Source: a virus
Direction: 5' to 3' (one strand)
Virus record (IMG/VR): IMGVR_UViG_3300025736_000250
Coordinates: 1 to 21,146 of that record
Length of the DNA: 21,146 nt
Position 1 is the first letter of the stretch; every line of letters begins with the position of its first letter. This document shows positions 3,195-21,146 of this stretch, one piece after another. The notes beneath the pieces were generated by a model. It was given only the letters and a program-made list of their open reading frames with translations. It was not told where the DNA came from and searched no databases. The position numbers were made by a program, and so were the translations under genes.

Positions 3195-3536
3195 CTATAA
3201 GCCAGAAGCTACTGTTAATATTTCAACACTAACATATCCAGAACTTGGAGCAGTAGCATATTTTACATAAAATTGTGTTCCTTTTGGAAGGAATTGATTT
3301 GTTACATCAGGACTATTACTTGTTAAATCCCATGTTTCAAATGAATTTGCAGGTAATTTTAATTTATTGTTTGTACCGTCATCTGATATGTAAATTGTTA
3401 TATCAGTATTATTTGTTATTTTTACAGCTCTTCCTAGTTTAGTTGTTACACCACCCAATACGGTATAGAGATTAGTAATATCTCCGTATGCTTTTTCTCT
3501 AATTGTTTCAAAAGTACAAGATTTTCCGTACGACAT
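3195..3536 (-). CDS. Small predicted virion protein, 113 residues
   Basis: I do not recognise a named family. The protein is beta-rich: a central AVKITNNTDITIYISDDGTN strand pair is followed by a LPANSFETWDLTSN segment, an FLPKGTQFYVKY strand and a PSSGYVSVEIL strand. This resembles small phage decoration or fiber-associated beta-sandwich proteins. The start is supported by AAAGGAT 8 bases before the ATG. It lies 9 bases upstream of the large propeller fiber gene, whose SD overlaps its stop, so the two are translated from one message and may form one structure. It is the first gene after the 63-residue plus-strand gene, so it probably has its own promoter in 3537-3665. Confidence 0.7.
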   Translation of the reverse strand: MSYGKSCTFETIREKAYGDITNLYTVLGGVTTKLGRAVKITNNTDITIYISDDGTNNKLKLPANSFETWDLTSNSPDVTNQFLPKGTQFYVKYATAPSSGYVSVEILTVASGL

Positions 3537-3594
3537 AATTTTTATCCTTTGTTAGCAGTTTGTTCTGCGAGCTTTTGCCCAAGTTAAGAACCCA

Positions 3595-3621
3595 TATACT
3601 AAAAATACATTAATTAGTATA
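3595..3621. promoter_or_regulatory. Palindrome in the gap between two divergent genes (candidate operator)
   Basis: The gap 3537-3665 separates the divergent minus-strand 113-residue gene and plus-strand 63-residue gene. It contains a perfect 8-base inverted repeat, TATACTAA (3595-3602) and TTAGTATA (3614-3621), with an 11-base spacer. A perfect plus-strand -10 hexamer, TATAAT (3618-3623), overlaps the right arm, but no good -35 is visible. On the minus strand, TTGTTT (3656-3651), a 17-base spacer and TATATC (3633-3628) make a weak candidate promoter. In AT-rich DNA such matches can arise by chance, so the regulatory role is tentative. Confidence 0.35.
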
Positions 3622-3665
3622 ATTTAAGATATATCAAGTTTAATTTTTAAAAACAAGGTATTAAT

Positions 3666-3857
3666 ATGAAAAAACCAGAAGAAACTAAGGTATCATATAA
3701 AATAGATAACGAAATAACTATATCTTTAGAGGGTGGTACAAGATTAGTGCTACCAATTAGTTATACTCATAAAAATGCTAAAGTAGCATTAGAAATTTTA
3801 AATAAAATTATTGAAGAGCAAGAGAAAGAGAAAAAAGAAGTTGATTCTGAAAAATAA
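3666..3857 (+). CDS. Small plus-strand protein of unknown function, 63 residues
   Basis: This is a short, charged, probably cytosolic protein and I do not recognise its family. The N-terminal half alternates charged and hydrophobic residues (VSYKIDNEITISLEGGTRLV), suggesting a beta-hairpin. The C-terminal half is a likely amphipathic helix ending in a Lys/Glu-rich tail. The ATG has AAGG 7 bases upstream, and this codon-like SD placement together with the empty opposite strand argues for a real gene. It runs against the surrounding late genes, between the terminator of the 655-residue fiber and the divergent 113-residue gene. Such small opposite-strand genes in phage late regions are often regulators or superinfection 'moron' genes, but the sequence does not say which. 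Confidence 0.55.
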   Translation: MKKPEETKVSYKIDNEITISLEGGTRLVLPISYTHKNAKVALEILNKIIEEQEKEKKEVDSEK

Positions 3858-3860
3858 TAT

Positions 3861-3888
3861 AAAAACCCCCTTCCGTCTTGAAAGGGGG
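3861..3888 (-). terminator. Intrinsic terminator after the 655-residue fiber gene
   Basis: Read on the minus strand, a 7-base-pair stem (CCCCCTT with AAGGGGG, arms 3882-3888 and 3866-3872) and a 9-base loop are followed directly by TTTTT (3865-3861). It lies 32 bases after the fiber stop codon. On the plus strand the hairpin is followed by AATTATAT, which is a poor U-tract, so it should act mainly on minus-strand transcripts. It also lies just after the convergent 63-residue plus-strand gene. Confidence 0.8.
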
Positions 3889-3919
3889 AATTATATATCT
3901 AAAACTAATCTATACTTTA

Positions 3920-5887
3920 CTACAAGACTGGAATAAACATCATGTAAACCATAGCATCATCAGTATTAACACTGTTAAGGCAACGAAGTGTTGCATTAGC
4001 TGCTAATGTTGACTTTGAATCATCTATATTCGGAAAGTCTGTAACATCAGTATCTGTTCCGCTATAAGCAACGGCAGCACAAATAGCATCTGCACCATCG
4101 TCTATAGTAACGTTACCAGTGTTGTTATCAGTTTCTTCTACCCATGCTTTTATAAGACGAGCTTTTTGTGGAAAGGCCGCATTATAAAGAACAGTAGTAA
4201 GAGCATTGCTGATATCTTTCTTAATAATGAAAGGTATTGCCATCCCAAGAGCTGTTGTTGCAGCAGCATCTTCAAGTTCAGCACCGTTAATATTGCTAAC
4301 TGTATTACTTGCACAATCAATAGTCTTTGTTGTCAAAGTTTGAGCAGCATCAGCAAAAACAAAAGCATCATCACCTAGAGGGTCAATAATACTTAATGCT
4401 CTAGCAGCAGCAGGATCAACTACAGTAAGAGTATAATTAGCAGTAGCCTGTTGGAAAACAAGACTTGTTTTTACAATACCACTTGTTATGGTTTTGTTAG
4501 TTAACTCTTCTGTACCAGCTAATGTAGACAATGTACCTGTAATAGGTAAAGTAACAGTAGTATTATTAGTTAATGTATACCCAAGAGTAAACGCACCAGT
4601 ACCTGTTACTGAACCCAAAGTAGTAAGTGTACCACCTAAAGCAATATTACCGCCTAAAGTGATTGTTCTATCTGTATCACCAACACTCCAAGAAATCTTT
4701 TTGCCTCCTGTTAATACTTCAGCAGTATCCTGCTCTAAATCAAAAGCAGCTCCAGATGAACGAATACTAAATCCAGTAAGACTATCAGCAGTACCGCCGT
4801 TAATATCAGGGGCTGTAAGAGTTTTACTAGCTAGTGTTTGTGCTAAAGTAGTAAATACAAATGTATCTGCAACAGAAGCAAAATCAGGTATTGTTAAAGC
4901 ACAAGTACCGACTGTTTGTGTAGTAAATGCTAATGTGGCATCGTTAGCACCAGCATCATTTAAAATACAACCATTAGCTATAGTAGTAGCCGATGATAAT
5001 GCTGGAGTTCCCCAATAGTTGTTAGCACTTGCGCCTGCTGAAAGCAAAGATTGACCTGCTGCACCAACAGCTAAAACTTCCCAACCTGCACCAGTATATT
5101 GTAAAAGAGTACCTTGAGCCTCTGAAGCAATAGTCAAATCAGTAACAGTAGTAGCTCCTGTATTAAGTAAAGAAACATCACCAGTTACAACTACAGACTT
5201 AACATCTGTACCATCACCAACAAGAATAGCTTTATCTGTCTTTGCTGAAAGACGATCATAACTAGCAACTCCACGAACAGCAATATCACCTTGAGCATCA
5301 GAGCCGAAAGTTAAACCTGTTACTGTAGTAGCACCAGCTTTAGTAATAGCAACATCACCAGAGATAGCTTGGTTTTTCCAAACAGTATCAAAAATAAGAA
5401 CATTAGCTTCAGCAGCTGTTGTTATTGTAACATCAGTAGCGGCTGCTATTGTAGTAATACCTGTTGTAAAGCTACCCCAAGCAGAACTAGAATATAGTAA
5501 ATATCCTGCTGTATCTTCATCAAAAACAATCATTCCTTCTGATGGTGCTGTTCCAATCCATTCCTCAGATGTATATTGATAAATATAGTTATCTGTCCAT
5601 AGACCGCTTGTAGCAGTTGATAAATATCTATTTCCTTCTGTAGCTGTTGCGGAAGCATATGCTATTTGAGATATAACAGATTCTTGATAATCATATCCAC
5701 CTTGCACATTTTTCCATGTTTTTACTCCACCTTCTTTAGAAGCCAAGTAATATAGTAGTCCAGATGATGAATCTAAAACAAAATCACCAAGTTTTCCACC
5801 TGTAGTAACAGTAGGAGCACTTGAAATTATTTTTAATTCTGGAACATTTTTTGATAGTCCCAAATATCTTAATGGGTCGTATGCCAT
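3920..5887 (-). CDS. Tail fiber-like protein with DUF2793-like module, 655 residues
   Basis: The N-terminus (MAYDPLRYLGLS) is followed at residues ~66-140 by a DUF2793-like module (EGNRYLST, TAPSEGMIVFDED, LYSSSAW) similar to that of the larger fiber. The long middle is Thr/Ala/Gly-rich and beta-repetitive, with spaced copies of a phage-fiber motif of the L(A/T)(S/N/T)KT(L/I) type at about residues 352-357, 462-467 and 517-522. Residues ~545-655 look like the beta-sandwich C-terminal domain seen in many phage structural proteins (AxIPFIIKKD, AFPQKARLIKAWV, ending YMMFIPVL). The start has AGAGGAT just upstream. The gene has its own candidate promoter and a strong terminator, so it may be a single-gene transcription unit. 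Host attachment is inferred. Confidence 0.78.
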   Translation of the reverse strand: MAYDPLRYLGLSKNVPELKIISSAPTVTTGGKLGDFVLDSSSGLLYYLASKEGGVKTWKNVQGGYDYQESVISQIAYASATATEGNRYLSTATSGLWTDNYIYQYTSEEWIGTAPSEGMIVFDEDTAGYLLYSSSAWGSFTTGITTIAAATDVTITTAAEANVLIFDTVWKNQAISGDVAITKAGATTVTGLTFGSDAQGDIAVRGVASYDRLSAKTDKAILVGDGTDVKSVVVTGDVSLLNTGATTVTDLTIASEAQGTLLQYTGAGWEVLAVGAAGQSLLSAGASANNYWGTPALSSATTIANGCILNDAGANDATLAFTTQTVGTCALTIPDFASVADTFVFTTLAQTLASKTLTAPDINGGTADSLTGFSIRSSGAAFDLEQDTAEVLTGGKKISWSVGDTDRTITLGGNIALGGTLTTLGSVTGTGAFTLGYTLTNNTTVTLPITGTLSTLAGTEELTNKTITSGIVKTSLVFQQATANYTLTVVDPAAARALSIIDPLGDDAFVFADAAQTLTTKTIDCASNTVSNINGAELEDAAATTALGMAIPFIIKKDISNALTTVLYNAAFPQKARLIKAWVEETDNNTGNVTIDDGADAICAAVAYSGTDTDVTDFPNIDDSKSTLAANATLRCLNSVNTDDAMVYMMFIPVL

Positions 5888-5922
5888 AATATCCTCTTTG
5901 TTATGGGTTAATACAGCTTAAA

Positions 5923-5952
5923 TATATAGAGTGAAATGATTGTTTAAAACAA
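5923..5952 (-). promoter_or_regulatory. Candidate promoter for the 655-residue fiber
   Basis: The minus-strand -35 TTGTTT (5952-5947), an 18-base spacer and -10 TATATA (5928-5923) lie about 36 bases before the fiber ATG. The spacer is one base over the ideal. The -35 overlaps the palindrome at 5940-5952, so a bound repressor would be expected to block it. Confidence 0.45.
5940..5952. promoter_or_regulatory. Palindrome TTGTTTAAAACAA between divergent promoters (candidate operator)
   Basis: This is a 6-base inverted repeat (TTGTTT / AAACAA) around a single central base. It covers the -35 of the fiber promoter and ends 4 bases before the -35 of the RHH gene promoter. A second inverted repeat, AATATTG (5962-5968) and CAATATT (5982-5988), overlaps the RHH promoter. 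Either could be the binding site of the RHH protein encoded next to it. Confidence 0.4.
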
Positions 5953-5956
5953 ATTA

Positions 5957-5985
5957 TTGACAATATTGCCAGCATGCCATACAAT
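5957..5985 (+). promoter_or_regulatory. Near-consensus sigma70 promoter for the RHH gene
   Basis: TTGACA (5957-5962) is a perfect -35. A 17-base spacer leads to TACAAT (5980-5985), 5 of 6 matches to the -10 consensus. Transcription would begin near 5992, about 13 bases before the ATG at 6005. This is the best promoter match found in the window and the only strong one on the plus strand. Confidence 0.8.
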
Positions 5986-6004
5986 ATTATTAAAAAGATA
6001 TAGC

Positions 6005-6160
6005 ATGGATTATTTTAAGAAGGTTACTTTTAGAATGACATACGAAAACATAAGAGAGCTAAAGGCATATTTAGCTTTGCTAGATATTAGCATGCAAGAT
6101 TTTATTAATATGGCTATTAAGGAAAAACTTGATAGAGATTTAAGTCCATCAATTAAATAA
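6005..6160 (+). CDS. Small ribbon-helix-helix (Arc/MetJ-type) DNA-binding protein
   Basis: The 51-residue product fits the RHH fold. A short beta-strand, KVTFRM (residues ~6-11), is followed by helix A (~13-27, YENIRELKAYLALLD), a turn with ISM, and helix B (~31-45, QDFINMAIKEKLDRD). RHH dimers insert the paired strand into the DNA major groove, usually as repressors. I chose the ATG at 6005 because a longer reading from the TTG at 5957 would begin inside the promoter -35; the SD is only AAAGA. The gene opposes its neighbours: it is divergent from the fiber gene, and its last 12 bases overlap the end of the large ejection gene tail to tail. Autoregulation and control of the fiber promoter are inferred from the palindromes. 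It could instead be an antitoxin-like protein, but no toxin gene is adjacent. Confidence 0.75.
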   Translation: MDYFKKVTFRMTYENIRELKAYLALLDISMQDFINMAIKEKLDRDLSPSIK

Positions 6161-9100
6161 TATATTATTTTCATTATCTTTATAAAACTTTCTAACTTGT
6201 TTTATACGGCTCTTTATCTGAGTATCACTATACCCATTATCTTTTAAATTTACTCTTATTGAGTTTAACTTAATAGCATCTCTCGATCTTATTGCATCTA
6301 ATATACGTGTTTCCGCTGCATACAAAGAAAGTCCTCTTACTACTGGAACTGCTCCCATACCAGAGGCAACTGTTGTCGCAAGTCCTTTGTCATCAAGTCC
6401 TCTTAATGAAAATGGTATAAAATCACCTATAAATGATATAGTGCGAGCCTTTGCTCTTTTAAATGTACCAGGTTTAGAACCATCCCAAGCCGTAAATTTT
6501 CCTGCTGCATACTTTCCTCTAACAGGAAAAAGCTCTCCTTTATATGGAGTTCCACCAATCATTTGCTTAAAAGCAGTTTGTATAACAGGAGAAGATTTAC
6601 CAAATAGTGCGTCAACTGGATCAGTAACATATCTAGGTATCTCTAATGCTTGCTTACCAAAGTGCGAATAAAACTTTCTACCAGTTCTTTCATCCTTACC
6701 TGGGTTAAACTTAATTCCTGCTATTTCCATATCAATATCAGGCAAAGGAAAACTAACCATTGCATTAGGTTCGCTATTTTCTATTGAACTAAAAGCTTTT
6801 TTTGGATTCCATTTAATTGACTGTTTATCTTTATCATTCTCAAATCCACCAAAAATAAATCTCATAGCATATGTTGCCATCATCCAATTTGATAAATATT
6901 TAAGCCAATAATTACGAGATAGGTTTCCTCTTATACCTGGAGCAAAGGCATCTGTTGCCTGTCTTAATGCTGAAATACCCCAGTCAGGATAACCTGCTAA
7001 TCTTCTTATCCATTTTCTAGTATTAGGATCATTATAATTCATTGTTGTTATAAGTTCAGGTATTTGTCCTCCAAACTGATTATTAACAGTTCTTGCAACT
7101 TCCTTAGCTATATCATTTACCATTTCAGGAGTTACAGTCTCTCCTTTCTTAATCTTCTCTTTAACTACTTTATCAAGATACATATCAAATGTAGCTATCT
7201 TTAATCTTGGTTGATACTCTTTAAATATCCAATCATGGCTTTTCTTAGCAATCTTAGCAGGAACTTTTGCTAAATCAGTAAATATAGATTTTTTTTCCAT
7301 GTCTTTAGAATATTTATTTAATATATCATTCCCTTTTTCAAAGCTTTCTGCATCAGGTATATTAAATGTAAGACCCTGTTTAGTCCTCCAGGCTAACTTT
7401 TCTACATCTTCAAATGCTTTAGAGCCTTCTTTCCACCATTTACCAGAAATAAAATCTTTTGCACCCATTCCTCCTACTGCACTTTCTGCTAGTGCTATTA
7501 TATGGAAAGGGCTTAGAGAAACCCTGGATATCTTCATTAAACTATTTATATTATCATAATAATCCCATCCAACACTCTGAGGTGAACCTTTCTTCTTTTG
7601 GAATACACCTTGAAATACTTTAGCAAATTCTGGGTCTACTAAAGCAGGTAGTTCTGATTTATATTGTGGCTTACCATCTTTAAATACAGTTCTTAGGAAT
7701 GGATCGTTAAACTCTACGAAACCTTGTTTTTTAGCAGCTTTGTATTCATCAGAAATCTGTCCTTTCTCAGAATTAACAATAAACTTTTGTCCACCTTCGG
7801 CTTGTTTTGTCTGTATATCATTAGATAGTTTAGAGTTAGCCATAGTTCTTATCATCATATTGTCATAATAAGACAATAGGTCTTTGATATTATTGAACCT
7901 TGGCTTTAGACCTGCTTTCTCAAAAGCTTCCTTATAGTTTTCATATTCCTTTGGATTTAAGAAAGCACCTTCTGTTTTAAACTTAGACTTTTCCTCTGGT
8001 GTCATTTTTTCAGACATTTTATCTATAGTATCTTGCATTGTCTGCTTAGACTCTGTTTCATAGACACCGTGAAGATAATCTTCTTTTTCAACTATCTTTC
8101 TTTGTGCAGGACTTTCATTCCACTTCTTACGCCAGTCTTTAAGGTGCGTATCAATAACTGTATCTACAACTATCTTAGCCTCTTTTGGTAGTCTTTTGCT
8201 TAGAGTTTCAAAGCTATCTCCTTCTAAATTAGGATTACCTGTTTTTTGACGATAATATATCATGTCTTCAAGTTCTTTATCAGTGAACTTCCTCTTTTTA
8301 CCTTCAATATCTCTAGGCTTTTCTAATTCTTCACGCCATTTTAATTGTGATTTTAATGTTTCTGCTCTTTGTTCGCCCAAATGCTCTTCTAAATCGCTGA
8401 AATACTCTTTTGTTCTTTCTTTTCTTGCTATATCATTCTTTTTAGTTAAAGTATCAGAAATGTTCTTGGCAAATTTTTCATTTATAATCTTAACTTTCTC
8501 TGGAAACATAGAGTTAAGCTTCTTTAATAAAGACTTTGTGTACTCTTTTGCATTTTCACTTCTTACCTCATCTCTCTCAGCGTTTTTATCTAATTTTTTT
8601 CTTATTTTTTCTCTGGATTTAATAACATCTTCGGGGCTTTTTGCTATTCCTTCTGTAACTTTTCCCTTAATACCCTTAACAGCTCTAAATCCTCCAATAA
8701 CTAAAGCATTTTCTGCAATCTCTGATGGATTAGGTAGCTTTCTCTCAATAATAGTTTCTCCACCTGTAAGAGCAAGAATTTCAGCTAAAGGTTCTTCTAG
8801 TTTAGCTCCTATCTTTGTGTCTAATAACTTTGCTAACTTTGGTGTTCTTCTTAGTATAGGTATTAGCTTTCCAGCTTGACCTACAATAGCACCAAGTGTA
8901 GCAGATTTGCCTGTACCCTTTACTATGTTTCCAATGTCTGATAGAAACTCACCATATGTACCATTAAAGCCTTCCTGTGAGTGCTTCTTATACATTTCAT
9001 ATGTTTCTTTTATCAATGTTGGCAATGCGAAAGCACCAGAAGTAGCTCCCACAGCTGCTCCAGCAACAGTACCAGCACCAGGAATAAAAGAACCAACTGC

Positions 9101-9481
9101 TCCACCAGCTAAAGCACCAGCCTCTCCTCCTGCCCACATAGCCGGTAAATCACCAATAACACCGCCTGCTAACTCTGATAAATGCTGTAGAACTGTATTA
9201 TCTTTTACATTTGGAGAATCGCCCTGTCCTGCTAATATTCCAGAAGTGCTATGAGAAAGACCTCTTTTAAAAGAAGCACCTATACCTCTTTCTGGTTCAT
9301 ATTGGTTTAGCTCTTCAGAACTTAATCCTGTAAGATTAGATAGTATCTCAGAAGATGAAAAATAACTATTTTTAGCTTTTTTAATCTTATTAGAAATCTC
9401 GCTATTTGTACCAGATAAATAATCAACTAATTCATCATCGGTAAAACCTTGTTTCTTAGCTTCTAAAATACTATTCTGCAT
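6149..9481 (-). CDS. Large internal virion / DNA-ejection protein, 1110 residues
   Basis: This is probably the largest ejected core protein, occupying the position of T7 gp16 or P22 gp16 although sequence homology is not evident. Residues ~8-62 contain helical motifs such as KQGFTDDELVDYLS. Residues ~104-155 and ~186-210 are Gly/Ala-rich with glycine-zipper spacing (AGALAGGAVGSF, AGTVAGAAVGATSG), suited to membrane insertion. Residues ~275-580 are highly charged and helical. Near residue ~645 is LMKISRVSLSPFH, a motif type found in large phage virion and polyvalent proteins. The C-terminus repeats a LKDNGYSDTQI motif also present in the 291-residue protein. No lysozyme or transglycosylase catalytic signature was recognised. 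The ATG follows the upstream stop directly (TAAATG) with a weak SD, suggesting translational coupling. Confidence 0.72.
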   Translation of the reverse strand: MQNSILEAKKQGFTDDELVDYLSGTNSEISNKIKKAKNSYFSSSEILSNLTGLSSEELNQYEPERGIGASFKRGLSHSTSGILAGQGDSPNVKDNTVLQHLSELAGGVIGDLPAMWAGGEAGALAGGAVGSFIPGAGTVAGAAVGATSGAFALPTLIKETYEMYKKHSQEGFNGTYGEFLSDIGNIVKGTGKSATLGAIVGQAGKLIPILRRTPKLAKLLDTKIGAKLEEPLAEILALTGGETIIERKLPNPSEIAENALVIGGFRAVKGIKGKVTEGIAKSPEDVIKSREKIRKKLDKNAERDEVRSENAKEYTKSLLKKLNSMFPEKVKIINEKFAKNISDTLTKKNDIARKERTKEYFSDLEEHLGEQRAETLKSQLKWREELEKPRDIEGKKRKFTDKELEDMIYYRQKTGNPNLEGDSFETLSKRLPKEAKIVVDTVIDTHLKDWRKKWNESPAQRKIVEKEDYLHGVYETESKQTMQDTIDKMSEKMTPEEKSKFKTEGAFLNPKEYENYKEAFEKAGLKPRFNNIKDLLSYYDNMMIRTMANSKLSNDIQTKQAEGGQKFIVNSEKGQISDEYKAAKKQGFVEFNDPFLRTVFKDGKPQYKSELPALVDPEFAKVFQGVFQKKKGSPQSVGWDYYDNINSLMKISRVSLSPFHIIALAESAVGGMGAKDFISGKWWKEGSKAFEDVEKLAWRTKQGLTFNIPDAESFEKGNDILNKYSKDMEKKSIFTDLAKVPAKIAKKSHDWIFKEYQPRLKIATFDMYLDKVVKEKIKKGETVTPEMVNDIAKEVARTVNNQFGGQIPELITTMNYNDPNTRKWIRRLAGYPDWGISALRQATDAFAPGIRGNLSRNYWLKYLSNWMMATYAMRFIFGGFENDKDKQSIKWNPKKAFSSIENSEPNAMVSFPLPDIDMEIAGIKFNPGKDERTGRKFYSHFGKQALEIPRYVTDPVDALFGKSSPVIQTAFKQMIGGTPYKGELFPVRGKYAAGKFTAWDGSKPGTFKRAKARTISFIGDFIPFSLRGLDDKGLATTVASGMGAVPVVRGLSLYAAETRILDAIRSRDAIKLNSIRVNLKDNGYSDTQIKSRIKQVRKFYKDNENNILFN

Positions 9482-11960: not shown

Positions 11961-14020
11961 TAAACACCCCTTATATCTGTAGAGTAAACCCAATATCTAA
12001 TAGCTGAAAGTTTAAAGTTTGCATTTGAATCTGAGCATTGTATTCCTATTTTATGAGTATTAGCTGACCTATTCACATAAACAGTATACCATTTTAGGTC
12101 TGCTTCAGTTGTTGGCTCTATAGTTTTAACTAAATAAGGTGTAGTATTAAAATTAGTATAGAAGTTTACTGTTATAGTTTTATCTTTAGTTATATCCATC
12201 AATAAATCTACTTTTCCAAGCCTAGAATTGACTCCTTCTGCAAAGAAGTTAAAGCGCTTTGTTTTTATTTCTACATCAATAGCAGTATCTATATCGTCAG
12301 AATTCTCTGCTGACATATTGTAAATTATTCCATTATGCCCACCAGCTAATAATAAAGGAGCTTCTGACATAAATAAATATGAATCTAAACGAACATCAAC
12401 CATATCTTCAAGTGTAGCTTCCCCAAAATCTCCTAATGTCTTATCAGAACCAACATTATAATATCCAAAACATGATAAATCTATATTGTATGTACTCCAT
12501 GAACCGCTTCTTTGGTCTAATACTAGCATTTTATCTGATTTAACTGTGGTATCTCCTATTGTTTCAGAAGATGGATATAACATATAAAGTTGGTCATTCT
12601 CTCCATGATAAAAACCAAAAGCTTGTTTTATATATGTTTGGTTCATAGTTAGAGTATAGTCAGGTATGAGTTGGTCTATATCTTGCACATTTACACCATC
12701 ACAAGCAATAATACTCTTTTTTCCTAGTGATATTACTCCTTGGTCGCTTTCTATTATAGAATATGGTGCATCTATTGACCTTGAACTATTTAATTTAGTT
12801 ATAGTAAATGGTACATCTGGATTTGATATATATCTCATTAAAAATGTAGAGTTCTGAAAGAATAAAACTAGATCTTCTCTTGCAAATCCAGTACATTGAA
12901 ACCATTGTCCTGTTGATATGTCTAATGAAGAACCACGACCTGAAACAGTGTCCTGCCATATATCAGTATTACCAGCTTGACACCATCTAACCCTTTGAGG
13001 ATAACGGACACTATCTTCAGTTGTGTCAACTAATACTAAACGCTCTTTAAATACCTTAATACTGCTACAACGGGATACTTGGTTAGTAGTTCTTGCTTGA
13101 TTAGTTAGATCGAAAATATGAGGCTCTAAAACGCTTCCATTGAATGTTAGTATTCTATCTTTGCTATTTGTAATCCATAGCTTATCATCATAGTTAACAG
13201 AATTAAAAAAGTCTGTGTTATCACCAGTGAAAATATCACCTTGACAACGATAAGTGCTAGTTACAGCAATACCATCAGTAACATTAGCATTAAAAGTTAT
13301 AGAATAAGCACCTGTAGCATAAACTATAGTTCCAGAACCTCCTCCATCTCCTGTTAAAGTACCATCTCCATTATCTGAAAATATTTCAGTACCATCTGTA
13401 ACAGCAAACGAACTTGTTAATATTGGTTTAAATACTAATGTTCCAGTATATTTTTTTGTTGCACCATCTCCACGACCTAATATTTCAGAAAAGTTTTCTA
13501 TAGGCAAAAATACTTCTGAAGTATCGTTATATAATGCTGCTCTATTGTCAGTGAAACATAATAATTCAGTAGTACCATCAGATTTTATATGCCTTTTTAA
13601 TCCCATTATTGGATCTGAACAAAATGTAGAAACAACTCCTCCACTAGTATATGTAGTATAAGAAGTTGAATTTGTACTATTTAATGTAAATTTATCATTA
13701 TCTACTTTAGTAACAGTATAATCAGCATTATTAAGTTCTACCATTCCAGATATTCCTGATAAGCGGACTATATCTCCATTAGAAAGTCCATGAGTTCCTG
13801 CTGTAACTTGGCATGGATTGGCTTTAGTACAAGCTGTTATATTGGCAACTATTTCAGGAAACTTATCAAACTGTGTTAAACCTTCTCTTTTTATTACTGA
13901 CCCTTTGTTTAAGTAAGCATTAGATAGACTTTCAAAGGCTTGTTCAGGCAATAAAAATGGTTCGGTATTGCTCTGCTGTCCAAGTTTGAAGTCTGATATA
14001 AGAAATGGTTTATATGGCAT
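11960..14020 (-). CDS. Tail hub / nozzle protein (P22 gp10-like)
   Basis: The 686-residue product resembles packaged-DNA stabilisation or tail-hub proteins (P22 gp10, T7 gp12). The N-terminus has FLLPEQAFESLSNAYLNKGSV and KREGLTQF, the usual opening of this family. After residue ~250 come propeller-like strands, including DDKLWITNSKDRILTFNG, RVRWCQAGNTDIWQD, LVLFFQNSTFLMRYI, GVISLGKKSIIACDG and DKMLVLDQRSGSWSTYNI. Residues ~60-129 are an inserted FCCH-like domain that is nearly repeated in the neighbouring 342-residue protein. Length exceeds P22 gp10 (472), partly because of this insertion and a beta-rich C-terminal domain (~575-686). It lies downstream of the adaptor, as expected for the tail. 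An AGGGG SD precedes the ATG. Confidence 0.82.
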   Translation of the reverse strand: MPYKPFLISDFKLGQQSNTEPFLLPEQAFESLSNAYLNKGSVIKREGLTQFDKFPEIVANITACTKANPCQVTAGTHGLSNGDIVRLSGISGMVELNNADYTVTKVDNDKFTLNSTNSTSYTTYTSGGVVSTFCSDPIMGLKRHIKSDGTTELLCFTDNRAALYNDTSEVFLPIENFSEILGRGDGATKKYTGTLVFKPILTSSFAVTDGTEIFSDNGDGTLTGDGGGSGTIVYATGAYSITFNANVTDGIAVTSTYRCQGDIFTGDNTDFFNSVNYDDKLWITNSKDRILTFNGSVLEPHIFDLTNQARTTNQVSRCSSIKVFKERLVLVDTTEDSVRYPQRVRWCQAGNTDIWQDTVSGRGSSLDISTGQWFQCTGFAREDLVLFFQNSTFLMRYISNPDVPFTITKLNSSRSIDAPYSIIESDQGVISLGKKSIIACDGVNVQDIDQLIPDYTLTMNQTYIKQAFGFYHGENDQLYMLYPSSETIGDTTVKSDKMLVLDQRSGSWSTYNIDLSCFGYYNVGSDKTLGDFGEATLEDMVDVRLDSYLFMSEAPLLLAGGHNGIIYNMSAENSDDIDTAIDVEIKTKRFNFFAEGVNSRLGKVDLLMDITKDKTITVNFYTNFNTTPYLVKTIEPTTEADLKWYTVYVNRSANTHKIGIQCSDSNANFKLSAIRYWVYSTDIRGV

Positions 14021-14029
14021 TTATAACCC

Positions 14030-15058
14030 CTATGCTTGGTTTCCTAATATCATTACAGAATGACTAACGGTTCTAATAGTATTTGTAGAAATAATAAATC
14101 GTATCTTAAATCCATTTACTGTCTTATCGCTAATGACAGCAGAATAAAGAAAACTAGTAGAAGAAGTATTTGGAGTTGCTAATATAGCATAATTTACGCT
14201 AGACATAGCAGAAGAAAAAGCATAAGTATATACACTAGCTGTTTCTGAACAAGAAGCAAAACCAAAGCTATCAGTTATAGTACTATTAGCAGCAGTAAGA
14301 GACCATGCCTTTACTACTCCATCTTTACCACTTGTAGACAAAGCTCCAGAAACAGTTAAATCATTAGCTACTGTTACATCACCACTACTATTAAAAGATA
14401 CCTTTTCAACACAAAAAGCACCGCCAGATGTGTATGTTGTATATAATGATGAATCAGTACTATCTAAAGTAAAATTGTTAGCGTCTACTTTTGTTATAGT
14501 GTAATTAGCATTGTTTAATTCTACCATGCCTTCTACATTTACAATCCTTACAACATCTGCGGTTGATAAATCATGTGCAGTAGCAGTTATTTTACATGGA
14601 TTAGCTTTTGTTGCTGCTGATATAGTATATGAAGCACTTTTTATTGATACTTTATTAGAACCTGCAGAATCACCCAATACAATCTCTACATCTTCTCCAT
14701 CAGCTGCTGTTAACTCTAATTCTGTACTACTAACAGCTTTAAGTCTATTTGCTAGAACCTCTCCCTCTTCTGTAAGCTGTATAACATTTGAATCTTCATC
14801 AATAATATGTAATTCAGGTTTCGTTGAGCCTGACGGATTTGCGACATCTTTTGAAAATATAATATCATTATCTGCTACTGCTGTAGGATTTGTAGTAGCT
14901 TTTAGAGTTACCTTGCGATGTTTGCCGTCATCGGTATCACCCATTTCGTAATGGTCAACTTTTATATTATCTTCTAAAGCATCCCAGTTATTCCGTATTT
15001 CTGCGGACAAAGAACCTAGTTTTGTTGAATTAGTTGGTTTTGTTTTGTCCCAAGTCAT
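14030..15058 (-). CDS. Fiber-like virion protein with FCCH-like domain, 342 residues
   Basis: The start, MTWDKTKPTNSTKLGSLSAE followed by IRNNWDALE, is a typical opening of phage fiber or fibritin-like proteins. Residues ~40-135 are beta-rich with Asp-rich turns. Residues ~145-213 are an FCCH-like domain (TKANPCKITATAHDLSTADV, EGMVELNNANYTITKVD, TTYTSGG). The C-terminus (~248-342) fits a fiber tip domain with KAWSLTAANSTITDSFGFAS, SVYTYAFSSAMSSVNYAI and a HSVMILG end. The gene has a strong SD (AAGGAG, 5 bases before ATG). It lies between adaptor and hub, so it could be a head fiber, collar whisker or tail fiber; the sequence does not decide. Its FCCH domain shares much DNA sequence with that of the hub. 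Confidence 0.75.
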   Translation of the reverse strand: MTWDKTKPTNSTKLGSLSAEIRNNWDALEDNIKVDHYEMGDTDDGKHRKVTLKATTNPTAVADNDIIFSKDVANPSGSTKPELHIIDEDSNVIQLTEEGEVLANRLKAVSSTELELTAADGEDVEIVLGDSAGSNKVSIKSASYTISAATKANPCKITATAHDLSTADVVRIVNVEGMVELNNANYTITKVDANNFTLDSTDSSLYTTYTSGGAFCVEKVSFNSSGDVTVANDLTVSGALSTSGKDGVVKAWSLTAANSTITDSFGFASCSETASVYTYAFSSAMSSVNYAILATPNTSSTSFLYSAVISDKTVNGFKIRFIISTNTIRTVSHSVMILGNQA

Positions 15059-15067
15059 AATATCTCC

Positions 15068-15706
15068 TTAAAATGATGGTATACTTCGTCTTTTATAAAA
15101 TTGTTGGCTTCTTTTTCTAGAAATTACTATTTTCTTTTCCTCATACATAGGCATTAGTAATTGTAGAGTTTGAAAGTCTCCTGTATCTTCTAATACTTCA
15201 AGGCTAGAACCATATGCAATTATAGAACCCCATTCTTCACGAATAGGGGTATCAGAATCATTATCTAAAGCAGATGGTCTAGTCCATGCAGAAGCTTTAA
15301 ATTCTAAATAGTCCGAACTAGGTGGCTGCATAAATGTAAGTTTATTATCATATAAAAGAATATCAGAAGGACAGCCATTGTCATATGTTTGGTCTTGCGG
15401 ATATTTAGCATAAAAAGTTGAAGGATCAAGACTTAATATCATCGGAATATCACTTATATAACATGGATTGTCTAATGTAAGATAACTATCATCAAAGCTT
15501 AGACTAGCTAGAGTATATTCACTTGTTCCTGCTGTTAAATCAGCTTCAAACCATGTTTGTAACTCTAAAGGTCTTAACTCCATAGGGAATATGATTTGAT
15601 AATATCTATTTATACAGATATCAATTTCAGCATCTGTTAAATCTGTAGCTGTAAGCTTTTTTATCTTTTCTCTGATATATATTAGAGTCCATAATCCTAG
15701 TGACAT
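15068..15706 (-). CDS. Head-to-tail adaptor protein
   Basis: The 212-residue product has the layout of podovirus adaptors (P22 gp4, T7 gp11 type). An N-terminal helical part (IREKIKKLTATDLTDAEIDICINRYYQIIF, split here as helix, short linker, helix with DAEI) is followed by a beta domain (TSEYTLASLS, PCYISDIPMILS), a KLTFMQPPSSDYLEFKASAW strand pair and a helical C-terminus rich in Arg/Lys. Adaptors dock under the portal and receive the hub. The order portal, capsid, adaptor, fiber, hub supports this. Its ATG overlaps the preceding stop by one base (TAATG) and has AAGG 7 bases upstream. The final basic residues (SRKRSQQFYKRR) could contact DNA or portal. Confidence 0.75.
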   Translation of the reverse strand: MSLGLWTLIYIREKIKKLTATDLTDAEIDICINRYYQIIFPMELRPLELQTWFEADLTAGTSEYTLASLSFDDSYLTLDNPCYISDIPMILSLDPSTFYAKYPQDQTYDNGCPSDILLYDNKLTFMQPPSSDYLEFKASAWTRPSALDNDSDTPIREEWGSIIAYGSSLEVLEDTGDFQTLQLLMPMYEEKKIVISRKRSQQFYKRRSIPSF

Positions 15707-16092
15707 TATTCTACCTTAGTTTCTTCTGATAATATTTGGCATAAGAAACGGTTTTTATAAGTATATTCTTTTACGCCCTGTTCTTTACAGATATTTGTTG
15801 ATACTCGTCTCTGTATACCATTAAGATGTTCAACTATATTTTTATTAAGTGTAACTTCGCACCCATCTAGTAGTTCGTAGTATTTAGTATTATAGTTAAA
15901 CTGTAGGTTTTGACCAGGGTCTCCAAGATTGTTAAACTTAAACTTGTAATATGTTACCTCTTTAGGTTCGTGCTTTTTAGGTTCTTCTTCCTTCTTAGGC
16001 TCTGGCTTTGCTTCCATCATAGCTGTTAATTTAGCTATCTGTTCTTCTAAGATATTTATTTTATCTTCGCTTGATACTGCTTTCTTAGGCAT
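15706..16092 (-). CDS. Coiled-coil structural-cluster protein of unknown function, 128 residues
   Basis: I do not recognise a named family. Residues ~8-28 are a short predicted coiled coil (EDKINILEEQIAKLTAMMEA). A Pro/Lys/Glu linker (~29-44) connects it to a compact beta domain with KFKFNNLGDPGQNLQFNYNT, YYELLDGCEVTLNKNIVEHL and a C-terminal YTYKNRFLCQIL strand. The domain pattern (F-N-N-L-x-x-P-G ... I-V-E-H-L-N) looks conserved-type. The ATG has GAGG 5 bases upstream. It is the first gene after a strong terminator and has its own candidate promoter, and it is coupled to the adaptor gene, so a neck or head-completion role is a reasonable inference. Confidence 0.65.
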   Translation of the reverse strand: MPKKAVSSEDKINILEEQIAKLTAMMEAKPEPKKEEEPKKHEPKEVTYYKFKFNNLGDPGQNLQFNYNTKYYELLDGCEVTLNKNIVEHLNGIQRRVSTNICKEQGVKEYTYKNRFLCQILSEETKVE

Positions 16093-16122
16093 GCAAACCT
16101 CATGTAGTTAAATTTAAATTTT

Positions 16123-16151
16123 AATATATCTTCTTATCTTATTATTTGCAA
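16123..16151 (-). promoter_or_regulatory. Candidate promoter for the neck and tail gene block
   Basis: Minus-strand TTGCAA (16151-16146), a 17-base spacer and TATATT (16128-16123) lie 31 bases before the ATG at 16092 and just after the terminator at 16165-16195. A promoter is expected here because the terminator would otherwise isolate the downstream genes. Strength is moderate, and AT-rich background makes chance matches possible. Confidence 0.5.
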
Positions 16152-16164
16152 ATAGATAACAAAC

Positions 16165-16195
16165 AAAAAAAGGTAGACCTATTTAAAAGCCTACC
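16165..16195 (-). terminator. Intrinsic terminator after the head genes
   Basis: On the minus strand, GGTAGGC (16195-16189) pairs with GTCTACC (16178-16172) through six Watson-Crick pairs and one G-T pair, with a 10-base loop. It is followed at once by seven Ts (16171-16165). It lies 29 bases after the stop of the 213-residue decoration gene. The opposite strand has no U-tract. Confidence 0.85.
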
Positions 16196-16223
16196 CTCTT
16201 ATCTACTTCGATATCAGCTAATA

Positions 16224-16865
16224 TTAACCAATATCTCCTAAATCCTGATAAAACTCACCAGGAATGGCTTCAACAATAATAACATCACTGTTTGAACCGA
16301 TAATATCAGTACCAAGCGTCATAGTATATGCTCCTGTTGTACCTTGATCGTCTGATAGATTTACAAGATAGTCAATAGTTCCAGCAACATAAGTTGTGAA
16401 ATCTGTTGTATCAACAGCAACTCCAGTAGCCAAATCTTTCAAGCTAAAGGTAGTAGAGTTAATAACAACGATCTCATATGTGTTGTTATTAAGCTCAGTC
16501 ATACCAGCAACACCGAAGATTTTAATAGTATCTCCAGTAGTGAAACTAGCTGTACTAGCAACTGTTCCAACGCCAGGATTTGCTTCTGTGAAGGCACTTA
16601 TTGCCGACTTAGCTCTTCCAGATGTTGAACTTGCTTCAAATTTGAAACCGTTAGATGTAGAAATAGAACGATTTATTCCTGTGTCATCAGCAATTTCATT
16701 GTATGCGTAATCAGAAGTATCACCTTTATGATAAATACTTTTAGCAACTGTTCCATCACTTGCCCATTTTGTTTTATTAAAAACAATAACCTTTGAAGGC
16801 TCAAAACCGATTTTTAAATCGTAAGCTGCTCCACCTGATGTTAATCTATAAAATTGGTGCATCAT
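16224..16865 (-). CDS. Predicted capsid decoration / head fiber protein with FCCH-like domain
   Basis: The 213-residue product follows the major capsid gene by 12 bases, a usual place for decoration proteins. Its N-terminus (FYRLTSGGAAYDLKIGFEPS, then VIVFNKTKWASDG) resembles phage capsid-surface beta domains. Residues ~88-163 are an FCCH-like domain (FTEANPGVGTV, TTGDTIKIFGVAGMTELNNN, TTFSLKD, TTYVAG), the most diverged of three copies in this window. The C-terminal part returns to the first domain (YTMTLGTDIIGSNSDVIIVE), which suggests that the FCCH domain was inserted into an older decoration fold. The first ATG of MM is chosen because AGGAG stands 8 bases upstream. Confidence 0.68.
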   Translation of the reverse strand: MMHQFYRLTSGGAAYDLKIGFEPSKVIVFNKTKWASDGTVAKSIYHKGDTSDYAYNEIADDTGINRSISTSNGFKFEASSTSGRAKSAISAFTEANPGVGTVASTASFTTGDTIKIFGVAGMTELNNNTYEIVVINSTTFSLKDLATGVAVDTTDFTTYVAGTIDYLVNLSDDQGTTGAYTMTLGTDIIGSNSDVIIVEAIPGEFYQDLGDIG

Positions 16866-16877
16866 AATTTATTCTCC

Positions 16878-17801
16878 TTATGCCGAAGCTAGTGTTGAGT
16901 TAATTTTGCATAACCAGTTTTCGTTTAGTAAAACTGCAGCAAAGAAATCCTTCCAACCTTGTGTACTTCTTTGCTTCAAAGGATCAGTAGGCTCTTGGAA
17001 AATCATCGAGCTTACGCCCTCAGCAAGTTCAGAAATAGCATACGCATTCTTTCCGCACATGATAGAACTATAAGTTCCAGAAGCTTCAATTCCAGCACTA
17101 GTCAATAACCAACGACTATTACCAATAGAACACTCTTCTCCTTGGATTGCAACTTTCTGTCCGTAACCTGCTACAGGAGTAAATCCAGTAACATCTCTTA
17201 GATCAGGTATTAAATCAGTATGACCAAGTACCCAGAAAGCCTTTTCCAAAGGACTAGTTCCAAAGTTTGTTGAACCGCCTATATCAGGAGTAAACATCTT
17301 AGCATCGTTGCTACGAAGGCGAGCAACAACAATAGCGATGTCACTAGCTGTTATCTCTGTTGGAGTGCCACCATTAGAACCTTTAGTACAATTATATACC
17401 GAAGCAGTAGAGTTAAGAACATCTCGAACTAATTCGTCACGAGTCTCACCCATTTGCTGTCCTAGGACATCAGCGTTTTCATTAAGAATACTATCTTCTA
17501 TGATATACTGAATTTTATCAGTAACAGTTATAAAATCACCGTACTGCTTAAGTTGAACTCTGATATCAGTAACAGAAGCAACTTTTCCAGTAGGTGTAAC
17601 ACCTTCTGTCAATGGAGTTGTCGCTGTAGCTAAGTTGCTATATCTACGAAATTTCATGTAATCACTGCTGTTAGCAGGGATATTTCTTTTTTGAGCAGGT
17701 ATTGAGAAAATCAATTCTTGCTTGGCACGCTCTAGCAACACTTTGTCATAATAGTTATTGACAGCTGCTGGAACATTGCCTGATGTTGTCATTTGAGTCA
17801 T
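16878..17801 (-). CDS. Major capsid protein, N4-gp56 family
   Basis: This 307-residue protein is the shell subunit, in the HK97 fold lineage. It shows clear N4-gp56-family features: NYYDKVLLERAKQELIFSIP (residues ~15-34), QKRNIPANSSDYMKFRRYSN (~37-56), TTPLTEGVTPTG (~61-72), KQYGDFITVTD (~85-95) and a helix with GQQMGETRDELVRDVLN (~114-130), followed by GYGQKVAIQGEE and the C-terminal QGWKDFFAAVLLN. It is slightly shorter than many relatives. The gene lies directly downstream of the scaffold and upstream of a decoration gene. AAAGG stands 6 bases before the chosen ATG; this SD sits in the loop and stem of a small hairpin that also covers the scaffold stop codon. Confidence 0.93.
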   Translation of the reverse strand: MTQMTTSGNVPAAVNNYYDKVLLERAKQELIFSIPAQKRNIPANSSDYMKFRRYSNLATATTPLTEGVTPTGKVASVTDIRVQLKQYGDFITVTDKIQYIIEDSILNENADVLGQQMGETRDELVRDVLNSTASVYNCTKGSNGGTPTEITASDIAIVVARLRSNDAKMFTPDIGGSTNFGTSPLEKAFWVLGHTDLIPDLRDVTGFTPVAGYGQKVAIQGEECSIGNSRWLLTSAGIEASGTYSSIMCGKNAYAISELAEGVSSMIFQEPTDPLKQRSTQGWKDFFAAVLLNENWLCKINSTLASA

Positions 17802-17821
17802 AATAAACCTTTTGTTTATTA
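17801..17821 (-). promoter_or_regulatory. Hairpin covering scaffold stop, capsid SD and capsid start
   Basis: On the minus strand TAATAAAC, the loop AAAAG and GTTTATTA form a perfect 8-base inverted repeat. The left arm begins with the scaffold stop codon, the loop contains most of the capsid SD, and the right arm ends with the A of the capsid ATG. The stem is AT-rich and weak, with only one G-C pair, so a ribosome finishing the scaffold should open it. This would couple capsid to scaffold translation. Confidence 0.45.
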
Positions 17822-18418
17822 CTTCCTAAATTTAGCATTTAAAGCTAAAATCTCCTCTCCTGACATATTTGAATACTTAGATATATTGCTTAACAATCCA
17901 CTGCTCCCAGCTTTTGCTGGATTACCAGGCTTTTTAAGATTTTCATCGATTTTTTCCGCATCTTTGAAGGTCTTGCCACTCATCTGGTCTTTTATGTATG
18001 CTGGGCTTTGCTTGCAAAGTATATAAGCAAACTTATATGGGTCTGGAGAATATTTAATAGTCTCTAACGCTTCCTTGGGAAGTGTTTTTCCATATTTGTC
18101 TAATACTTCGCTATAATCTGGATGTTGAGCCTGCACACGCAATTCAGCTATCTCGTTTTGATATGATTTATCCTTTTCTGCAAAAGAGTCTTTTAAGTCT
18201 TTAACAGTGATTAAATCCTCATCATCACGACCACTGAACGATCCATTCTTGGCTTCCTTAAGTTGTTCTATCTCTTTCGAGAGAGCTTTAACTTGGTTAG
18301 CCTGTTCTGACATCGTTGCATTTGCTTTAACCCAGTTAATATCCTGACTATTGCTTTCTTTCCCAGCGTCGACCTGAGTTTCTTCGACCGTTTGAGTTTC
18401 CTCGATTTTTTCGCTCAT
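17819..18418 (-). CDS. Capsid scaffolding protein
   Basis: The 199-residue product is acidic, helical and polar, without enzyme motifs, and lies between portal and major capsid genes: the classical scaffold position. Residues 1-30 are Glu/Gln-rich and probably disordered. Residues ~35-58 and ~72-97 are predicted coiled coils. Residues ~99-130 contain HPDYSEVLDKYGKTLPKEAL and the following YSPDPYKFAYILC, a pattern seen in phage scaffolds. The C-terminus (MSGEEILALNAKFRK) ends in basic residues, which in P22-type scaffolds bind the coat protein. The start has AGGA 8 bases upstream. A putative promoter and 5' hairpin precede the gene. Confidence 0.82.
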   Translation of the reverse strand: MSEKIEETQTVEETQVDAGKESNSQDINWVKANATMSEQANQVKALSKEIEQLKEAKNGSFSGRDDEDLITVKDLKDSFAEKDKSYQNEIAELRVQAQHPDYSEVLDKYGKTLPKEALETIKYSPDPYKFAYILCKQSPAYIKDQMSGKTFKDAEKIDENLKKPGNPAKAGSSGLLSNISKYSNMSGEEILALNAKFRK

Positions 18419-18444
18419 GTTTTGAGTCCTATTTTAAGCGTTAT

Positions 18445-18465
18445 GAAACAGCGACTTCCTGTTTC
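18445..18465 (-). promoter_or_regulatory. Stem-loop in the leader of the scaffold gene
   Basis: GAAACAG (18465-18459 on the minus strand) and CTGTTTC (18451-18445) are perfect 7-base arms with a 7-base loop. No T-tract follows, so it is not an intrinsic terminator. It begins almost exactly at the predicted start of transcription from 18473-18502, so it could be a 5' cap-like stem-loop that stabilises the scaffold-capsid mRNA. It could also be a processing site. Confidence 0.45.
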
Positions 18466-18472
18466 TATTTCC

Positions 18473-18502
18473 GTTATAGTTAAAGTTATTATTTTAATGC
18501 AA
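18473..18502 (-). promoter_or_regulatory. Candidate promoter for scaffold, capsid and decoration genes
   Basis: Minus-strand TTGCAT (18502-18497), an 18-base spacer and TATAAC (18478-18473) lie in the 87-base gap before the scaffold gene. This gap is larger than those around it, which supports a regulatory role. A promoter here would allow high expression of scaffold and capsid relative to portal. Confidence 0.45.
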
Positions 18503-18505
18503 ATA

Positions 18506-18853
18506 TTATTTTAGAATAATTCCGCCCATTTCATCGCTGACAAGTTCTGAATAGCTTGCTTTATGGTCAAAAGGTAGGCAATAGAGAGTCTCTATCTTAC
18601 CAGCCATCTCATCAATTTCCCAACATATAGCCCCTAGCATAGGAGGTATATTTTTAATCCGATTAGGAGAAACTACCGTGAAGCCTTCTCTTATTATGTT
18701 TGTAAGAAACTTATCAAACTTCGCTGAATATATTACAAAATAATGTTTAAGCGTTGGTTGTTCAACTCTTACTTCTTCGACAACTTTATAAAGTTTATCT
18801 GATAAGTCTTTTCCTAACGCATTTCTTGTTTCTCCAATTTCTTGATATACCAT
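18506..18853 (-). CDS. Small head-cluster protein of unknown function, 115 residues
   Basis: I do not recognise a family. The protein is mixed alpha/beta and probably soluble: an N-terminal helix (GKDLSDKLYKVVEEVRVEQP), a strand (HYFVIYSAKFDKFL), a helix (LTNIIREGFTVVSP), then EIDEMAGKIETLYCLPFD and a C-terminal GGIILK. There is no membrane segment or catalytic motif. It is placed between portal and scaffold, where many podoviruses carry a small assembly gene. AAGG overlaps the portal stop and lies 5 bases before the ATG, so the two genes are translationally linked. Confidence 0.65.
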   Translation of the reverse strand: MVYQEIGETRNALGKDLSDKLYKVVEEVRVEQPTLKHYFVIYSAKFDKFLTNIIREGFTVVSPNRIKNIPPMLGAICWEIDEMAGKIETLYCLPFDHKASYSELVSDEMGGIILK

Positions 18854-18860
18854 AAATGCC

Positions 18861-20924: not shown

Positions 20925-20957
20925 CGTATACACCTTGGTTATCTAAATCTATTGTCT

Positions 20958-20986
20958 TGTATACATGTTTATCTTAAAAATGACAA
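20958..20986 (-). promoter_or_regulatory. Candidate promoter between terminase and portal genes
   Basis: Minus-strand TTGTCA (20986-20981), a 17-base spacer and TATACA (20963-20958) lie in the 70-base gap. The -10 is inside the palindrome TGTATACA (20958-20965), and TGTATAC occurs again at 20926-20932 near the portal start. The -35 hexamer is identical to that of the ejection operon promoter. Confidence 0.4.
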
Positions 20987-20994
20987 TTTAAAAT

Positions 20995-21146
20995 TTAAAC
21001 TATCATTCTGTTTCGTCTGTTAAGCTCATTAATATTATAAGGTTTATTTGGACTGTCTGGATATTCATACCAGTGCATTAATCCGTATCTAAGAGCGTCC
21101 AGGCAGTGATCATTAGTTTTGGAAGGCTTGTCAATGCCTCTTAATG
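20995..21146 (-). CDS. Terminase large subunit, C-terminal end only
   Basis: Only the last 49 residues are inside the window. They contain KPSKTNDHCLDALRYGLMHW, which fits the end of the RNase H-like nuclease domain of large terminases, where a D-x-x-D-A-x-R-Y motif carries a metal-binding aspartate. After it comes a short polar tail (YEYPDSPNKPYNINELNRRN). The gene ends with TAA at 20997-20995. Its place directly upstream of the portal is the standard late-gene order. The ATPase domain and any small subunit lie outside the window. Confidence 0.85.
   Translation of the reverse strand, partial: LRGIDKPSKTNDHCLDALRYGLMHWYEYPDSPNKPYNINELNRRNRMIV

Follow-up and report, generated by a model that had tools for sequence, protein, structure and literature searches.

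In P22-like phages, the stretch separating genes 16 and 9 is a site of variable insertions, called the "ant moron" (PMC2629481). The moron ranges from the full mnt-arc-ant set of P22 to complete absence in Sf6, APSE-1, APSE-2, and phiSG1, and in ST64T, ST104, and Para1 it is cut down to mnt and one unknown gene (PMC2629481). Phage L likewise has mnt and one unknown gene (PMC8022706). The P22 moron has been proposed to affect the amount of late transcription that reaches the tailspike gene, and a terminator of its own, although common in morons, is not demanded by their definition (PMC2629481). Since lone-mnt morons exist, a lone ribbon-helix-helix (RHH) gene at the junction of the ejection and fiber genes is a known pattern, of which the locus described below is a single instance.

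The sequence analyzed here (the window) is an entire IMG/VR record of 21,146 bases, probably a fragment. Its RHH gene, encoding 51 residues, resembles P22 immI (mnt, arc, sar, ant, sieA) in position and general type only. Both comprise one or more RHH genes with their own promoter in the gap between the ejection and tailspike or fiber genes of a podovirus (PMC2629481, PMC8022706), but ant, arc, sar, and sieA are not detected in the 261-bp gap of this phage, which is distantly related to P22 and whose protein falls outside the Arc family by Pfam. The first-pass annotation had presented the locus as a mirror of P22 Arc/Mnt; position and RHH type bear out that comparison, whereas kinship does not, with no match to Pfam Arc (PF03869) and no BLASTP alignment to Arc itself. 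Its remark that an antirepressor gene is absent holds for the whole window. With ST64T, ST104, Para1, and phage L the locus shares a single RHH gene, no antirepressor, and one small gene near the fiber or tailspike. Those phages, however, carry mnt homologs related to immI, whereas no Arc/Mnt-family match was detected for the 51-residue protein, and their second small gene lies in the same gap, rather than beyond the fiber as it does here. By analogy, the 51-residue gene may act like a lone-mnt moron.

The late region and its two small backward ORFs

All large genes of the window lie on the minus strand. Read from right to left, the late genes start with the end of the terminase gene, a portal that is of P22 type by profile match, and a major capsid protein matching PHROG 1357 and Phage_capsid_4. 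These are followed by a possible adaptor, E1_FCCH-domain proteins (one of them stabilization-protein-like), and an acetyltransferase-like protein, and then, further leftward, by proteins of 291 and 1110 residues, a probable fiber of 655 residues, a protein of 113 residues, and a DUF2793 protein of 1036 residues. The 291- and 1110-residue products are probably ejection proteins, a role suggested for the latter by its position and by weak PHROG matches to large structural proteins. The 655-residue product is probably a tail fiber, as judged from a weak DUF2793 match (24.6 bits, E 2e-5) and its repetitive sequence. The same order of capsid, adaptor, stabilization protein, and acetyltransferase genes recurs in Pseudoalteromonas phage Y3 and in the viral contig L091, where the last two genes were judged by tblastn.

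Over 14405–21146 the window is matched without a difference by two further contigs, L004 and L005, which represent the same virus population. L005 extends the sequence by 5 kb; the added part encodes terminase subunits and contains divergent genes, among them one for a Sak-type single-strand annealing protein. Positions 8088–8253 of L004 are 95% identical to 13855–14020 of the window, at the start of the stabilization-protein gene, and blastn reports no L004 match within 14021–14404; this difference is strain-level variation in the neighboring FCCH-domain gene. A terminator-like hairpin with a T-run is also present at 16167–16200 on the minus strand, in the 131-bp gap that follows the 213-residue FCCH gene, itself downstream of the capsid gene.

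Only two of the gaps between the 17 annotated late genes exceed 131 bp. One of them, the 261-bp gap (5888–6148) between two large minus-strand genes, has room for the 51-residue gene only, which is translated as MDYFKKVTFRMTYENIRELKAYLALLDISMQDFINMAIKEKLDRDLSPSIK and overlaps the 3′ end of the 1110-residue gene by 12 bp (Table 1). With a codon model built from the window's own genes, the frame reaches 0.22 bits per codon; the true genes span 0.07–0.55, and all 58 spurious frames of 40–110 residues fall below it, the best of them at 0.15. By this measure we take the ORF to be a real gene. Its ribosome site is weak, with no clear one seen, the leader predicted from the upstream promoter, if used, is about 12–14 nt, and no terminator-like site follows the gene within 5000–7000.

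A second plus-strand ORF, of 63 residues and beginning MKKPEETKVSYK, sits in a 383-bp gap at the opposite end of the 655-residue fiber gene. Its codon score of 0.34 bits per codon is within the range of the phage's genes, a ribosome-site-like AAGG lies upstream, and no homologs were found. The RHH gene had been described as opposite to all its neighbors; this is correct for the two genes that flank it but not for the 63-residue ORF, which runs in the same direction.

Table 1. Features at and around the ejection/fiber junction of the window
Feature	Position	Strand	Basis or remark
51-residue ribbon-helix-helix gene, moron candidate	6005..6160	+	Translation, codon score, RHH profile, NCBIfam BrnA
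Sigma-70-type promoter TTGACA-17-TACAAT (predicted)	5957..5985	+	Sole 11/12 match in the window
Possible autoregulatory operator, ACAATATT x2	5960-5967, 5981-5988	+	Covers -35 and -10
1110-residue late protein	6149..9481	-	3′ end convergent with the RHH gene; position after adaptor and stabilization genes
655-residue probable tail fiber	3920..5887	-	Divergent from the RHH gene; DUF2793 and repetitive sequence
Second backward small ORF, 63 residues	3666..3857	+	Codon score; no known family
Intrinsic terminator CCCCCTTTCAAGACGGAAGGGGG-TTTTT	3866..3888	-	-19.4 kcal/mol, z -3.8

The ribbon-helix-helix assignment

The protein was scored against an ungapped profile of 42 columns made from 33 RHH domains, of which it is not one. 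It fits over the full domain length without a gap at 10.3 bits; shuffles of the same protein average -28 bits, and 1 in 100,000 reaches 10.3. It ranks best among the 130 frames of the window, with the runner-up at -4.2. As a positive control, P22 Arc, a solved RHH protein outside the profile set, scores 3.8 bits. Across 11,725 open frames of relatives only three exceed 10 bits, and one of these, an RHH_1 protein that passes the Pfam cut-off, itself belongs to the 33-sequence profile. The ungapped scoring was picked after weaker results from HMMER local alignment were known, in which the protein placed 730th among shuffles with a profile of 9 RHH sequences and 217th of 20,000 with a profile of 33. 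We adopted the full-length ungapped score because local alignment rewards short chance matches.

Searches of family databases returned a single weak match in NCBIfam, to the RHH half of the BrnA antitoxin (E = 0.0065), where three scrambled sequences of equal length gave none; Pfam RHH_1 (PF01402) did not match. The likeness to CopG/RHH_1 and to the BrnA RHH domain consists of a collinear, gapless 40-residue RHH pattern with a KKVTFRM ribbon. In contrast to CopG/RHH_1, the protein stays under the Pfam thresholds, and a plasmid replication or toxin context is absent. Even if it has no effect on late read-through, the gene is a clear case of a small regulatory gene overlooked by standard domain searches: Pfam reports none here, whereas a gapless profile combined with shuffles succeeds.

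Structure prediction gives a mixed picture. Single-sequence AlphaFold (AF2) places helices at residues 2–25 and 30–46, and the turn between them is correctly placed. Residues 2–12, the expected ribbon, nevertheless come out helical, whereas the N terminus of a bona fide RHH protein modeled likewise stays non-helical. A Foldseek search of the PDB found no match. The RHH call is therefore based on sequence, and on the strength of the ungapped profile score, the shuffles, and the Arc control we assign the product as an RHH DNA-binding protein, in agreement with the first-pass annotation.

Promoters and late transcription across the junction

The predicted promoter of the 51-residue ORF lies 20 bp upstream of it. 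Window-sized shuffles are expected to hold 1.65 such 11/12 sites and the window holds one, but for one to fall on the correct strand and no more than about 55 bp ahead of the ORF the odds are, by simple arithmetic, roughly 0.002. The earlier description of a small backward gene with a near-perfect promoter of its own is sustained by the codon score, the RHH profile, and this predicted site. Counting both strands, the window has just two copies of the octamer ACAATATT, which are 21 bp apart, or two helical turns. They could form an autoregulatory RHH operator; the pair is offered as a lead, since in a best-repeat test 34% of shuffles of the region equal it, which is not significant.

A dedicated fiber promoter, with its -35 in a palindrome, had also been proposed, and we find little to distinguish it from background. 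It is a 9/12 site, a class represented 77 times in the window against 86 expected from shuffles. The palindrome (TTGTTTAAAACAA, 5940–5952) is weaker than the top inverted repeat of the same 118-bp stretch, which is itself equalled by 44% of shuffles. No terminator was found between the 1110-residue ejection gene and the fiber gene, so the fiber can be expressed without a dedicated promoter. A strong intrinsic terminator follows the fiber gene, just past the stop of the 63-residue ORF. With this terminator after the fiber and none before it, late transcription can cross the RHH gene in antisense and continue into the fiber. The same terminator implies that the 113- and 1036-residue genes to the left need another promoter; none of 9/12 or better was found in 3500–3960. 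Direct repression of the fiber by the RHH protein is neither needed nor supported, and an indirect effect of the RHH gene on read-through into the fiber is possible.

Relatives of the junction and alternative readings

Usable relatives of the 1110- and 655-residue genes were not found, so junctions were compared through the capsid gene. The nearest relatives by this gene, at 46–50% identity, stop short of the junction, and those that reach it (G009, G010, G014, and Y3) have capsids only about 32–39% identical. No RHH gene was found at the junction in the distant syntenic relatives G009, G010, and G014 (38–39% capsid identity) or, by annotation, in Y3. As far as such distant relatives can show, the RHH gene appears to lie outside the conserved late set; because they come no closer than about 39% capsid identity, insertion and loss look alike in this comparison.

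Searches of viral contigs, phages, plasmids, and the PDB yielded no convincing homologs of the 51-residue protein, and an Rfam search gave no match. The only viral match, in L001, was dropped because it falls in another frame of a GC-rich contig that lacks an RHH-like gene, and an RHH_1 match in G001 was dropped as missing the ribbon when read from its ATG. An RHH match in G009 was not confirmed by the profile scan. In G027, an integrase-bearing relative, a leftward early operon opens with an RHH gene whose product has a comparable ribbon (MKKVNFFMT); the similarity of this product to the 51-residue protein is only 26% across the domain, and scanning with the two as seeds yielded no relative.

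Unrelated backward genes also occur in the tail or late regions of other relatives. Contig L103 has a backward ORF of 77 residues with a good coding score (15203–15436, minus strand), between the gene in the acetyltransferase position and the ejection genes. Another backward gene with a good coding score lies in the tail/late region of L176 (8825–9181 on its reverse complement).

That the ORF is an unexpressed chance frame in AT-rich intergenic DNA is very improbable: it is short, its ribosome site is weak, no homolog was detected at the same place, and AlphaFold predicts no ribbon, but its codon score beats every spurious frame, its RHH profile score is all but unmatched among shuffles, and a promoter stands where one would be needed. 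RHH domains are common in antitoxins, and the sole family match of the protein is to the RHH part of one. That the protein is a BrnA- or CopG-like antitoxin, or is cargo left over from a toxin-antitoxin pair that lost its other member, is nevertheless unlikely. The gap holds no toxin partner or second plus-strand gene, a 94-residue frame inside the 1110-residue gene (6387–6671) has a codon score at the spurious level and no family, PADLOC gave no match, and the tail of only about 7 residues past the RHH domain is short for a toxin-binding segment.

We see only a slim prospect that the locus is a pared-down immI switch, with the RHH protein acting directly on a dedicated fiber promoter to repress it or conferring superinfection immunity. 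The RHH gene is divergent from the fiber gene across a shared intergenic region of 117 bp, a common arrangement for a regulator and its target, and its position is that of P22 immI (PMC8022706). Against this stand the chance-level frequency of the fiber promoter site and its palindrome, and the late transcription that can supply the fiber for want of a terminator before it. The window contains no antirepressor, an integrase is absent from both the window and L005, which are fragments, and lone-mnt morons have been published without any such demonstrated switch (PMC8022706). It is quite improbable that the protein regulates early or host genes in trans, with its late-region location incidental. 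The early-operon RHH gene of G027 would fit that arrangement, but the similarity is low and the pair led to no relative, and both ACAATATT copies in the window are at the gene's own promoter, although the available sequence covers only the smaller part of this phage's early region.

The reading we favor, and consider reasonably probable, is that the 51-residue gene is an autoregulated RHH moron with its own promoter, read against the late operon. The locus has the look of a moron gene acquired independently, and not of a novel type of switch. The favored reading is supported by the codon score, the RHH profile with its Arc control, and the predicted 11/12 promoter, by the lack of an RHH gene at the junction in G009, G010, G014, and Y3, by the unrelated backward genes in the tail or late regions of L103 and L176, by the variability of the P22 ant moron, lone-mnt versions included, and by the effect on tailspike level proposed for the P22 moron. 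It is weakened by the helical ribbon in the AF2 model, the missing Pfam RHH match, the weak ribosome site, the short leader, and operator repeats that are not significant. A promoter of its own is predicted for the gene, but it has no terminator of its own in 5000–7000.

The RHH-like coding frame, its orientation, the strong promoter-like sequence, and the position can be read directly from the sequence, and they suggest the following scheme. A moron, meaning a small gene with expression independent of its surroundings, would have been inserted at the ejection/fiber junction in the late operon of a podovirus with a P22-like portal, and its product would be a homodimeric RHH DNA-binding protein. 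The dimer may repress its own synthesis by binding the ACAATATT boxes that overlie the -35 and -10 of the gene's promoter. It would be made early, in the prophage, or both, while the late operon is silent, and in the lytic phase late transcription would overrun the gene in antisense. Any effect on the fiber would be indirect: late RNA polymerase would be impeded between the ejection and fiber genes, either by the bound protein or by the opposing promoter, in the way suggested for the P22 ant moron and tailspike level. The main target of the protein may be elsewhere in the phage or host genome.

Should the RHH gene influence late read-through, it would offer a simple example, outside the lambdoid group, of a repressor moron that controls fiber dosage, and it would point to the ejection/fiber junction as a place where insertion of RHH morons is recurrent and tolerated. 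More broadly, podoviruses unrelated to one another might each have acquired an RHH repressor, opposed to the late operon, at this junction as a means of tuning late transcription into the fiber, with the present phage as a minimal one-gene version; we consider this unlikely.

Among the relatives with backward genes, L176 (7724–8245 of the reverse complement) and L177 (8151–8615) have backward ORFs resembling LAGLIDADG-type homing endonucleases, recognized by eye only from the motif IAGLFDGEGW. They sit beyond the fiber genes, beside a second backward ORF common to both contigs.
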